DNA from: Candidatus Rokubacteria bacterium 13_1_40CM_69_27
Lineage (GTDB): Bacteria > Methylomirabilota > Methylomirabilia > Rokubacteriales > CSP1-6
Reading direction: 5' to 3'
Assembly (NCBI GenBank): GCA_001917535.1
Contig: MNEF01000042.1
Span: 1 to 48,424 of the forward strand
Length of the DNA: 48,424 nt
Shown one piece after another: positions 2,551 through 6,379 of the stretch. Under the pieces are notes generated by a model, which worked only from the letters and a program-made list of their open reading frames with translations, ran no database searches and was not told the DNA's origin. The stretch's first letter is position 1. Each line of letters begins with the position of its first letter. The translations under genes and the position numbers were made by a program.

Positions 2551-3654
2551 ATGCGCCACCCTTGTCGCTGGATCGCCGGCATCGCGGTCGCCGCCACCGT
2601 CCTCGCCGCAGGGCTGACCCTCCGCTTCGGGCCCGCTCTGGCCTTCTCGCTGGCGCTGGCCGCGCCCGGCGCCGAGCCGTGGCTGGCTCCGCTCGCGTCC
2701 GAGTGGACGCGCGAGGAGATCCGCCTTTCGGTCGACGGTCGCTCCCTCGACGCCGACCTCTATCGACCCACGAAGCCCCGCGGCGCGCTTCTGCTGGTCC
2801 ATGGTCTGTCACTCGCTGGGCGCCGTCACCCCGACCTCGAGCGCCTGGCACGCCTGCTGGCCCGGCAGGGGCAGCTCGTTCTTGTCCCGCACTTCGAGGG
2901 GCTCGCGGCCTTCCGGCTGAGCGGGCGCGAGGTGGCCGAGATCCGGGCCGCGATCGAGCACCTCCGCCGGACGAGCCAGAGCGTCGGCATCGCCGGATTC
3001 TCCTTCGGCGCCGGGCCCGCCCTGCTGGCCGCCGCCGACACACCGGGCCTGGGCGTGGTCGGCTCCTTCGGCGGGTACGCCGATCTCCGCAACGTCATCA
3101 CGTTCGTCACCACCGGCGTGCACACGTGGCAGGGCCGGCGGTACGTGGAGCGGCAGGAGGAGTACAACCGCTGGAAGCTGCTGGCGCTCCTGGGCGGCTT
3201 CGTCGATGACGCGCGCGACCGGCGACAGCTCGAGGAGCTCGTGACGCGAAAGCTCGCCAACCCCCTCGCCGACACCCGGGCGTTGGAGAGCACCCTGGGC
3301 GCGGAGGGGCGCGCGGTGCTGACGCTCGTCGTCAATCGCCGCGAAGAGGCGGTCCCGGCGCTCCTGGCGGCGCTCCCCGCCGACGCCCGCGACGCGCTCG
3401 CGCGCCTGTCACCCCTCACCGTGCTGCCGGGCTTCCGCGCCCGGCTTCTGATCGCCCACGGCATCGGCGACGACTCCATCCCCTTCACCGAAAGCCGGCG
3501 CCTGGCCGCCGCCGTCCCCACCCCGGCCCGGCTCGTCCTCTTCCACACCTTCCACCACACCGGTCCCCGGCCGGCCTGGCGGTCGCTGACCGAGCGCGCG
3601 CAGGACGGCTGGCACCTGCTCGGGCTGGCCGACGAGCTGCTTTCACAACGGTAG
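2551..3654 (+). CDS. Alpha/beta hydrolase with N-terminal membrane segment
   Basis: 367 aa. A hydrophobic N-terminal stretch (about residues 7-38) suggests an anchor or signal. The alpha/beta hydrolase fold is shown by an oxyanion HG motif (LLVHGLSLAG, about 81-90), the nucleophile elbow GFSFGAG with Ser151, an acid candidate in IAHGIGDDSIPF and a His in FHTFHHTG near the C-terminus. The substrate cannot be read from the sequence. It starts 15 bases after the DUF6569 stop, so it is probably in the same transcript. Confidence 0.85.
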   Translation: MRHPCRWIAGIAVAATVLAAGLTLRFGPALAFSLALAAPGAEPWLAPLASEWTREEIRLSVDGRSLDADLYRPTKPRGALLLVHGLSLAGRRHPDLERLARLLARQGQLVLVPHFEGLAAFRLSGREVAEIRAAIEHLRRTSQSVGIAGFSFGAGPALLAAADTPGLGVVGSFGGYADLRNVITFVTTGVHTWQGRRYVERQEEYNRWKLLALLGGFVDDARDRRQLEELVTRKLANPLADTRALESTLGAEGRAVLTLVVNRREEAVPALLAALPADARDALARLSPLTVLPGFRARLLIAHGIGDDSIPFTESRRLAAAVPTPARLVLFHTFHHTGPRPAWRSLTERAQDGWHLLGLADELLSQR

Positions 3655-3678
3655 GACTTCGGTGTTTTATAGAGCGGG

Positions 3679-4206
3679 ATGGGTCAACAACCCTTCGAGA
3701 CGATCCTGGAGGCACACCACGCGGAGATCTATCGCTACCTCCTCCGGGTGACCGCGCGCGCTAGCGAGTCGGACGATCTCGCCCAGGAGACCTTCCTCCG
3801 CGCCTACAAGGCCTACCGGGCGCTGGCGCCGGACGCGAACGTGCGCGCCTGGCTGTTCACGATCGCGACCAACCTGGCTCGGAACCATTTCCGGGCCGAG
3901 CGGCGCCGGCGGAACGCCCACGCGGCCGTGCGGGCCACGCGGGCCGAGACGGACGGGACCGGCCCCGAGGGCGAGACCCTCTTCAAGGAGACGCGGGCGC
4001 ATCTCGACCGCGCCGTCGCCCGCCTGCCCCTCAAGCAGCGGCTGGCCTTCGTGTTGAGAAAGGTTCATGACCTCGACTACGATGCGATTGCGCGAAACCT
4101 CGACTGCTCGGCGGAGAGCGCCCGGGCGCACGTCTTCCACGCGCTCAAGAAGATCCGCCAGGAGCTCCAGGCCTTCGCGCCGCCGCGGATGGAGCTCCAG
4201 CAATGA
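3679..4206 (+). CDS. ECF-type RNA polymerase sigma factor paired with Ada/MGMT anti-sigma
   Basis: 175 aa, complete. Region 2 spans about residues 6-75 (HHAEIYRYLLRVTARASESD, DLAQETFLRAYKAYR, WLFTIATNLARNHFRAE) and region 4 about 112-165 (LPLKQRLAFVLRKVHDLDYD followed by the recognition helix). Length and domain order are normal for the family. The ATG has a weak site (GAGCGGG) and a TATAGA box lies just upstream at 3668-3673. The stop codon overlaps the start of the next gene, the usual arrangement for a sigma factor and its inhibitor; here the partner is a DNA-alkylation repair fusion, so the regulon is likely alkylation-responsive (inference). Confidence 0.92.
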   Translation: MGQQPFETILEAHHAEIYRYLLRVTARASESDDLAQETFLRAYKAYRALAPDANVRAWLFTIATNLARNHFRAERRRRNAHAAVRATRAETDGTGPEGETLFKETRAHLDRAVARLPLKQRLAFVLRKVHDLDYDAIARNLDCSAESARAHVFHALKKIRQELQAFAPPRMELQQ

Positions 4207-5174
4207 TGCGACTGCCAAAGGTCTGCGCCGACATCGAGTCCGACATCATCGCCGCGGCGACGGGCGAGGCCGACCCGGCCACCGACCGTCGCGTGCAAGA
4301 GCACGTGGGTGTCTGCCCCCCTTGCGGCGGTGAGTTCGAGCGTTACCGAGCCATCGATCGCGCGGCCGGTGCCTGGCGCCAGGCGCCGACTCCGGTCGCG
4401 GCGCTCGCGCGCATGCGAAAGCGGCTCGAGTCCCGGCTCTCCGACCTCAAGCGCCGCACCTTCACCTACCGCGTGTTCCCCTCCCCGCTCGGCAACATCC
4501 TCATCGCCGTATCGGAGCAGGGCGTCTCCCTCATCGAGTACCTGGGGCGCGCGCACACGCTCAGCCAGTCCCGTCTGGCCCGCCTGGCCGGCGTGGAGGC
4601 CATCGAGGACGGCGCCGAGCTGGAGGCGCTCTCCCGCGAGCTGCTCGAGTACCTCGAGGGCAAGCGCACGCGGCTCGACTGGCCCCTCGACCTCCGATTG
4701 GCCCGGAGCGACTTCCACCGCACGGTGCTCCAGACCACGGCCAGCATTCCCTACGGCGCGGTGATGTCGTACGCGGGCGTCGCCTGCGAGGTCGGCAAGC
4801 CGGCGGCCACGCGTGCCGTGGCCCAGGCGCTGCGCTGGAATCCGCTGCCGATCGTCGTGCCCTGCCACCGCGTCGTCGGCACCTCCGGCTCGCTCACCGG
4901 CTATGCCGGCAACAAGATCGAGCTCAAGCAGCGGCTGCTCGCCACCGAGGGGATCCCGACGGTGAAGGCCCACGACGAGTTCCAGATTCCCCGCGACACG
5001 ATGTACGCGCGCTACCCGGGCGACGATTCCTACTGCCTGCCGACCTGCCCCTCGCTCAGCACCCTGGAGCATCCGCACCAGGTCGTCTTCTTCGGCTCGC
5101 GCGCGCGCGCCGAAGCGGCCGGGCTTCAGCCCTGCACGACCTGCCGACCGGACCTCCACCCGCTCGCGCGGTAG
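4203..5174 (+). CDS. Anti-sigma zinc finger / O6-alkylguanine-DNA alkyltransferase / Ada-type Cys4 fusion
   Basis: 323 aa in one uninterrupted frame. Residues 1-60 form an anti-sigma zinc-finger (zf-HC2) with Hx3Cx2C at H34, C38, C41. Residues about 87-250 are a complete MGMT/Ogt domain: IPYGAVMSY helix, RAVAQALRWNP, active-site PCHRV with Cys221, and GSLTGYAGN. Residues about 265-323 match the Ada N-terminal zinc domain (AdaA), with the four cysteines kept (C278, C282, C311, C314; YCLPTC and PCTTCRPD). In E. coli Ada the Cys4 domain accepts methyl from DNA phosphotriesters and becomes an activator through an AraC helix-turn-helix; here that output is absent and an anti-sigma domain sits at the other end, next to its sigma factor. 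No transmembrane segment is seen, so it is cytoplasmic. Domain calls are strong; the sensing mechanism is inferred. Confidence 0.93.
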   Translation: MMRLPKVCADIESDIIAAATGEADPATDRRVQEHVGVCPPCGGEFERYRAIDRAAGAWRQAPTPVAALARMRKRLESRLSDLKRRTFTYRVFPSPLGNILIAVSEQGVSLIEYLGRAHTLSQSRLARLAGVEAIEDGAELEALSRELLEYLEGKRTRLDWPLDLRLARSDFHRTVLQTTASIPYGAVMSYAGVACEVGKPAATRAVAQALRWNPLPIVVPCHRVVGTSGSLTGYAGNKIELKQRLLATEGIPTVKAHDEFQIPRDTMYARYPGDDSYCLPTCPSLSTLEHPHQVVFFGSRARAEAAGLQPCTTCRPDLHPLAR

Positions 5175-5241
5175 CGATCTCCCGCTCGCGATTTCACGCC
5201 GCCCGCCCTGCGGTGTCGTACCGGATGGAGGGAGGCGCACC

Positions 5242-5607
5242 ATGCTGAACCTGCTGGGGCCGATCATCGTCGCGATCGTTCCGCTCGCTTCCGTCGTCGC
5301 CTTGCTGCTCCTCGTGACGCGCAGGGAGCGCGTGCGTGACGCGCTCGTCGCGTGCCAGGTGGCCGTGACCGACGCGATCCACCAGGAGCTCGGCGCCATC
5401 GTCTCGCCCACGATGAGAAAGCGCTCCTGGGGGCGCTGTCAGCTGGTCATCGCCGTGCCGCTCGAGCGTCCGGCGGTGGTGGGCCGGGTGCTCACCCTGG
5501 CGCACGGGGCCCTGGACCGTGGCGGCGGGATCGCCGGCCGGCGCGTCGAGATCGTCCTCATCCCCCAGCCCGAGCGCGGTCATGCCGCCGGCGAGCGCGC
5601 AGCGTAA
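5242..5607 (+). CDS. Small single-pass membrane protein of unknown function
   Basis: 121 aa with a strong ribosome binding site (GGAGGGAGG) before the ATG. Residues about 4-27 form one hydrophobic segment (IIVAIVPLASVVALLLLV), followed by basic RRERVR, which predicts the remainder is cytoplasmic. The soluble part contains hydrophobic strands (CQLVIAVPLE, RRVEIVLIPQ) but no motif I recognise. Its 3' end overlaps the broken EamA reading frame. Confidence 0.6.
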   Translation: MLNLLGPIIVAIVPLASVVALLLLVTRRERVRDALVACQVAVTDAIHQELGAIVSPTMRKRSWGRCQLVIAVPLERPAVVGRVLTLAHGALDRGGGIAGRRVEIVLIPQPERGHAAGERAA

Positions 5608-6379
5608 GCCGTGGGCGGCGTTCGGGCTCCTGGCGCTGCTGTTCGGTTCGGCGTTCCTGTGGAACAAGCTGGCGCTGGCCGAGATCGCCATCCTGGGGGC
5701 GGCGGCATCGTACGGGGCGGCCGCCGTCTTCGCGCGCCGGCACCTGCGCGGTCAGTCGGCGCTGGCCCAGGCCACGATGGTGTTGCTGATCGCTGACGGG
5801 CTGGCGTGGGGCGCGGCGCTCGGCCTGGAGCGTCCGCTCCGGGTGCCGGCGCTTCCGCTGACGTGGGTCGCGCTGATCGCGCTGGGCGTCTTCGGCTCGT
5901 GCCTCGCCTACCTGCTCTACTTCTACCTGATCCGCGCATGGGACGCGACGCGCGCCTCCACGGTCACCTACCTCGTACCGGTGGTCGGGCTGCTGCTCGG
6001 CGTGACAGTGCTCGGGGAGGCGGCCGACGGGCGCCTCCTCGCCGGCGCCGCGCTCGTCGTCGCCGGCGTCGCCATCACCCACGCGCGCGGAATTTCACGC
6101 GAGCGACTCCAGGGGGGTCTTAGCAGGCAAAGGAGTCGCGATGGACTTCAACGAGTATTACGCCGAGCACCTGATCAAGGACCGTCTCGCCGATCTGTAC
6201 GCCGAGGCGCAGCGCGACCGTCTTCGGCGTCTGGCCCGCACGCCCCACCGCCCGCTGCGGGTGGCGCTGGGCACGGCCCTCATCAAAATCGGCGCCTGGC
6301 TGCTGCGCGACGACTACGTCAGCCCCTCAGCGCTCTGAGCACCTCCACCGTGCGCGCCGGCTCCGGCCGGTGCGTGTAG
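5582..6379 (+). pseudogene. EamA/DMT transporter with internal deletion and lost stop
   Basis: The frame opens with a typical first EamA helix (FGLLALLFGSAFLWNKLALAE) but jumps at about residue 37 straight into the second EamA repeat (ILGAAASYGAAAVFARR ... VVGLLLGVTVLGE, ending near THARG at about 6095). Family members are about 290 aa with ten helices; roughly 110 residues (helices 2-5) are missing. After the natural end the frame runs on as Arg/Ala/Pro-rich sequence that overlaps the gene at 6141-6338 in another frame, so the original stop also appears lost. Either a decaying gene, a half-size transporter, or an assembly deletion. Confidence 0.7.
6141..6338 (+). CDS. Small basic hypothetical protein
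   Basis: 65 aa with a clear ribosome binding site (AAAGGAG, 6 nt before ATG). The N-terminal half is a charged helix (EYYAEHLIKDRLADLYAEAQ), followed by an Arg-rich stretch and a short hydrophobic helix (ALGTALIKIGAWLL), suggesting peripheral membrane association. The ribosome binding site and codon pattern favour this frame over the overlapping EamA run-on. It converges with, and overlaps by 20 bases, the peroxiredoxin gene on the other strand. Confidence 0.6.
   Translation: MDFNEYYAEHLIKDRLADLYAEAQRDRLRRLARTPHRPLRVALGTALIKIGAWLLRDDYVSPSAL

Follow-up and report, generated by a model that had tools for sequence, protein, structure and literature searches.

An ECF sigma factor encoded with a zinc domain-MGMT-Ada-type fusion protein in Methylomirabilota: a candidate alkylation-responsive switch

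Introduction

Bacterial alkylation responses are understood mainly via Ada. Where a zinc anti-sigma domain is encoded right behind an ECF sigma gene, it keeps the sigma factor bound until a signal arrives (RsrA, ChrR), and a zf-HC2 gene in this position together with an autoregulatory-type promoter represents the classic sigma/anti-sigma layout. The ECF122 group of the Casas-Pastor classification, with a model member from Cellulomonas, is listed with a neighboring 6-O-methylguanine DNA methyltransferase (MGMT) gene, no anti-sigma factor and a mechanism given as unknown (PMC8999054). Alkyltransferases fused to another function are represented by AGT-EndoV and AGT2; a sigma-regulator fusion is not named in the review describing them, from which the word 'sigma' is absent (PMC10779285).

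Here, we analyzed a locus of the soil Rokubacterium Candidatus Rokubacteria bacterium 13_1_40CM_69_27 within a stretch of 48,424 nucleotides (contig MNEF01000042.1, referred to as the window), in which an ECF sigma gene is followed by a gene encoding a predicted zinc anti-sigma-type domain, an MGMT domain and an Ada-type Cys4 domain in one polypeptide. With ECF122 it shares an ECF sigma gene adjoined by MGMT, and the Actinomycetota loci reported below also look like ECF122 by its description. However, MGMT is here not encoded separately but is part of the product of the next gene, fused to the zinc and Cys4 domains, and the organism belongs to another phylum. Like E. coli Ada, which acts in an autoregulated repair operon, the fusion combines MGMT and an Ada-type Cys4 domain in one putative regulatory protein, but its Cys4 domain is partial and located at the C-terminus (reversed order), an AraC-type DNA-binding domain is missing and the output would run through a sigma factor. 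RsrA/RshA and ChrR likewise have a zf-HC2-type zinc domain encoded directly after the sigma gene, and ChrR also a fused C-terminal domain; in the present case, however, a suicide DNA-repair enzyme would take the place of the fused cupin, and sensing would not be done by the zinc site itself. AGT-EndoV and AGT2 resemble it as alkyltransferase fusions, yet their partners are an endonuclease or histone-like (PMC10779285).

A preceding sequence-only reading of this DNA knew of no described system with this architecture. For the fused architecture this held in the literature searched: no description of a zinc-anti-sigma-MGMT-Ada fusion was found in open-access full texts, where absence is not proof, and the fused anti-sigma factor, the promoter and the regulon appear to be new there. 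MGMT beside ECF122 sigma factors, in contrast, had already been published (PMC8999054).

Results

The sigma and fusion genes overlap by the ATGA described in the sequence-only reading, as is evident from their coordinates (Table 1). In the 175-aa sigma factor, sigma2 and sigma4 regions are present and sigma3 is absent, as in ECF sigma factors. A Pfam scan of the 323-aa protein returned zf-HC2 at residues 8-41 (E 3.8e-5, above cut-off), Methyltransf_1N at 89-164 (E 2.8e-7), DNA_binding_1 at 170-251 (E 2e-28) and Ada_Zn_binding at 277-317 (E 1.8e-8), and no AraC-type helix-turn-helix. The Hx3Cx2C residues H34, C38 and C41 are where they had been placed, but that list was incomplete, as C8 is a fourth invariant ligand-type residue that gives a full C-H-C-C set and thereby the upstream ligand of a ZAS motif. 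The MGMT domain is complete, with the proposed acceptor Cys221 in PCHRV and its supporting residues. At the C-terminus the four predicted cysteines stood, the whole domain did not: the Ada_Zn_binding profile is matched in positions 27-65 of 65 alone and the Cys4 domain is thus partial, lacking the full metal-binding domain found at the N-terminus of Ada regulators. It is the sole Ada-type domain of the source genome.

Table 1. Features of the sigma-fusion locus, in window coordinates.
Feature	Position	Strand	Description
Promoter of sigma gene	3641..3669	+	-35 TTTCAC (3641-3646), 13-nt spacer, -10 CGGTGTT (3660-3666), TTA
ECF sigma factor, regions 2 and 4	3679..4206	+	175 aa; Sigma70_r2 E 1.2e-16, Sigma70_r4_2 E 1.2e-12 (Pfam)
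Fusion protein, predicted anti-sigma zinc domain + MGMT + Ada-type Cys4	4203..5174	+	323 aa
N-terminal zinc anti-sigma-type domain, aa 1-85	4203..4457	+	Four helices; ligand set C8/H34/C38/C41
MGMT domain, aa 86-251	4458..4955	+	Acceptor Cys221 in PCHRV
Ada-type Cys4 domain, aa 273-317	5019..5153	+	C278/C282/C311/C314
Second promoter copy, directly 3' of fusion gene	5192..5220	+	Exact match in genome-wide pattern search
Candidate regulon gene, small protein	5242..5607	+	N-terminal membrane helix + beta-beta-alpha-beta domain; present 3' of fusion gene in 26 loci
Weaker promoter variant TTTCACGCGAGCGACTCCAGGGGGGTCTTA	6093..6122	+	Exact form in sister genome G001, C62:4400-4428
Small ORF, 65 aa	6141..6338	+	Relatives at other loci; no family match

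The AlphaFold model of the fusion protein (pLDDT 89.7, pTM 0.73) has four confidently predicted N-terminal helices (residues 6-19, 25-37, 39-60 and 65-85), the last of which continues into the first MGMT strand, and a small beta domain after the MGMT fold. MGMT identity was obtained from an hmmsearch of the PDB (7.8e-30) and from Foldseek (1sfe, E 5.5e-12; 4bhb also matched), where the result was dominated by this part of the model. The N-Ada structures 1adn and 1u8b were matched by sequence profile (E 4e-4 to 9e-4). For the N-terminal profile, the anti-sigma factors DdvA, RsiW and ChrR were among the best matches to solved structures, none of them significant (E 0.1-0.5).

The fusion was found in 47 of the 95 genomes of the phylum Methylomirabilota (E <= 1e-60). 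Fifty loci were fetched in addition to the window, and in all 48 with sufficient upstream contig the sigma gene lies immediately 5' of the fusion gene, with a 4-base overlap in 45 and a 4-base gap in 3. Fusion orthologues that were compared are ~52-86% identical to the window protein, and zf-HC2 was matched in 34 of 38 family members. The zinc ligands C8, H34, C38 and C41 are invariant in 49/49 sequences; across 46-49 sequences the same is true for the MGMT residues Y190, R204, N213, PCHR220-223, Y234, K242 and E249 and for the four C-terminal cysteines, confirming that the key residues are intact. A scan of genome contigs added three further Rokubacteria and otherwise distant MGMTs. The sequence-only reading had asked whether the pair is conserved and had named an assembly chimera as a possible origin of the fusion, which its presence in 47 genomes rules out; the upstream sigma gene at every testable locus and the invariant residues further demonstrate that the fusion is not a product of chance.

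At 39-1414 of the window, 2 kb 5' of this locus, lies what looks like an ordinary further sigma/anti-sigma pair, in which an ECF sigma gene (39-521) is overlapped by a gene encoding a zf-HC2-like N-terminus (MTCDHARAMF...HLAACPDC).

Upstream of the sigma genes, mostly 9-15 nt 5' of the start codon, the consensus TTTCAC-N13-CGG(T/G)GT(C/T) was identified, with a spacer of 13 in 45/45 elements. The strict pattern stands 5' of the sigma gene in 43 of 46 loci and directly 3' of the fusion gene in 37 of 46; 508 kb searched on both strands contained 2 further matches, and Markov-shuffled sequence averaged 0.0. A slightly stricter pattern was then counted in 50 related genomes, 27 with and 23 without the fusion. 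It yielded 70 matches, 68 of them in fusion-bearing genomes, each of which had at least one (27/27), against 2 matches in 2/23 genomes without the fusion; the reversed-pattern control gave 2. One match in the source genome (C50:85420, CGGCGTT) looks like chance and was set aside. On the level of sequence, these counts support autoregulation of the sigma operon through the promoter at 3641-3669, which would presumably be read by the partner sigma factor.

The promoter also precedes genes outside the locus, and 31 such sites in relatives and two in the source genome were read. About 15 precede DUF2652 genes, 10 precede genes of the DinB superfamily (DUF1706/ClbS-like, DinB_2, MDMPI_N) and two precede Usp genes, other genes having single sites. 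As background, 30 genomes contain 11 DUF2652 genes, 8 of them at promoter sites, and 25 DUF1706 genes, 4 of them at promoter sites. In the source genome, a DinB-like gene follows an off-locus site at C17:697-725 that has one mismatch. The sequence-only reading had suggested a search for a promoter shared between the sigma gene and alkylation-repair genes. Apart from the sigma gene itself, such a promoter was detected in G029 and G003 in front of a DinB gene followed by an MGMT gene (DinB-MGMT operons); AlkA/AlkB-type genes were not found behind it in Rokubacteria. DUF2652 is the commonest off-locus target (L133, L135, L137, L145, L148 and others), and its position at promoter sites is a lead to a role in alkylation or electrophile stress. 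Within the window, the product of 5242-5607, which sits behind the second promoter copy, belongs to no known family; its model (pLDDT 87) gave weak, OsmC/KH-like Foldseek matches (best E 2e-3, TM 0.32). The ORF at 6141-6338 is likely a further regulon member.

Among plasmid records, from which the distribution outside Methylomirabilota was taken and which give a lower bound, overlap between a sigma gene and an MGMT or MGMT-Ada gene was seen in Rubrobacter, Nonomuraea, Tsukamurella, Arthrobacter, Rhodococcus and Streptomyces. The reciprocal search with the window sigma factor brought these loci up again near the top, with 5 of the 6 top listed matches adjoining MGMT or MGMT-Ada genes. The operons of Tsukamurella, Rhodococcus and Arthrobacter also carry Oxygenase-NA, an AlkB-type oxygenase, an Ada-Zn protein or a methyladenine glycosylase. 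The zinc domain was absent from every sigma-linked plasmid partner scanned, so that the MGMT protein in Actinomycetota would need another hold on the sigma factor.

In Streptomyces, the MGMT domain of the sigma partner (L168 4528-5370, L169 4525-5346) is degenerate, with PCHR retained; the protein also carries Ada-Zn, and an intact MGMT gene comes next; metF is nearby, and in L168 metK as well. A degenerate domain keeping PCHR beside an intact MGMT gene is what would be expected of a sensor. Rokubacteria also possess a second sigma-MGMT-Ada pair (L173-L177, in G006, G020, G030, G036 and G023) with a different N-terminus and no zf-HC2; several of its sigma genes seem to share another element on their 5' side, similar to TTCCACCC-N16-CGTATA. 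At L179 (G004:C1:19000-23000), a DUF1706 (ClbS-type) gene lies directly 5' of an actinobacterial-type sigma-MGMT pair in Rokubacteria, which independently connects DinB-type proteins with MGMT-linked sigma factors.

In the sigma tree, the sigma factors of the fusion loci form one clade (95/85) beside those of the Tsukamurella type with AlkB operons (94/82, just below the support mark). The second-type Rokubacterial sigma factors stand apart (99/95), and deeper forks are weak. Given these separate positions, along with the pairs in Actinomycetota and the second Rokubacterial pair, the pairing of MGMT with ECF sigma factors seems to have happened on more than one occasion.

Discussion

The promoter distribution, the regulon genes and the actinobacterial AlkB/glycosylase operons provide good support for an autoregulated alkylation/electrophile-stress sigma system. 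The alkylation setting proposed by the sequence-only reading is recovered in the DinB/ClbS-type genes of the regulon, with MGMT in two genomes, and in the operons of the actinobacterial relatives. Sequence comparison thus establishes the pairing of sigma factor and fusion, the invariant residues, the common promoter with its genes and, among the relatives, the context of alkylation repair.

As the best explanation we propose a soluble sigma/anti-sigma switch with a built-in sensor, in which alkyl transfer to Cys221 or the Cys4 site would free the sigma factor (probability roughly 0.55). In the unstressed cell, the zinc domain at the N-terminus of the fusion would hold the ECF sigma factor. Upon damage, Cys221 of the MGMT domain would accept an alkyl group from DNA, or methylation would occur at the Ada-like Cys4 site, and the alkylated protein would change shape, unfold or be degraded, thereby freeing the sigma factor. 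This would transcribe its own operon, giving more repair protein and resetting the response, as well as the small gene set behind TTTCAC-N13-CGG(T/G)GT(C/T). Release upon repair is suggested by combining the hold exerted by zinc anti-sigma domains with the destabilisation of alkylated AGT. In other organisms, alkylated AGT loses much of its stability and undergoes degradation, and methylated SsOGT has a melting point 20 degrees lower (PMC10779285, PMC4605297). The conserved pair and overlap, the invariant residues, the frequent zf-HC2 match and the four-helix N-terminus leading straight into MGMT also favor this reading, as does the lack of any other Ada-type domain in the source genome. Several observations argue against alkyl-dependent release: the N-terminal match to solved anti-sigma factors is weak, plain repair activity would equally keep the MGMT residues invariant, AlkA/AlkB-type genes are missing behind the Rokubacterial promoter, and the actinobacterial partners have no zinc domain. 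Moreover, DinB-superfamily proteins abound in the regulon and include thiol-transferase-like ones, which would suit a thiol/electrophile sensor too.

Such a sensor is the basis of the main rival, which we nevertheless regard as unlikely. Here, the zinc domain itself would sense as in RsrA/RshA, electrophiles or oxidants hitting its cysteines and freeing the sigma factor, and MGMT and Ada would be repair output on the same polypeptide. It draws on the DinB/MDMPI/ClbS-type proteins of the regulon and on the invariant C8-H34-C38-C41 set, the spacing of which we take to be equal to C11-H37-C41-C44 of RsrA. A precedent exists in SigH of C. glutamicum, which is freed when its anti-sigma factor undergoes thiol oxidation or alkylation, and which has an MGMT gene in its regulon (PMC3489674). 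However, thiol sensing leaves unexplained why zinc-less MGMT (with or without Ada) occurs beside related sigma factors in Actinomycetota and in the second Rokubacterial pair, and why PCHR is kept in the degenerate Streptomyces partner.

Sensing by the Ada-like Cys4 domain, responding to phosphotriesters or a free methylating agent with the MGMT part serving repair only, is improbable. Its four cysteines are invariant, the domain is kept in some actinobacterial and in the second-type partners, and E. coli Ada is methylated at C38, which sits in the matching domain, besides C321 (PMC4437013); yet the first 26 Ada profile positions are unmatched, and several sigma-linked partners (Tsukamurella, Rhodococcus, Arthrobacter, G004) lack the domain wholly. 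Equally doubtful is an ordinary repair enzyme that is co-transcribed with a stress sigma factor and does not sense, its zinc domain having another role such as DNA or protein contact: this agrees with the weak match to solved anti-sigma factors, but not with a zf-HC2 domain encoded directly 3' of an ECF sigma gene (overlap or 4-nt gap, 48/48) and an autoregulatory-type promoter.

Taking up alkyl-dependent release again, a broader version can be put forward more tentatively, at slightly under even odds. A suicide repair enzyme would serve as anti-sigma factor, each repair irreversibly spending one inhibitor and freeing one sigma factor, so that lesions would be counted stoichiometrically. This Ada-independent adaptive response would have more than one origin, involving different ECF sigma factors, and would be built with or without the zinc domain.

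The defined promoter and the candidate regulon make the sigma-alkyltransferase switch directly testable. If true, it would supply a mechanism for an ECF group for which this is listed as 'unknown', and the hold of an alkyltransferase on a sigma factor would represent a second route from irreversible DNA repair to a transcription signal.
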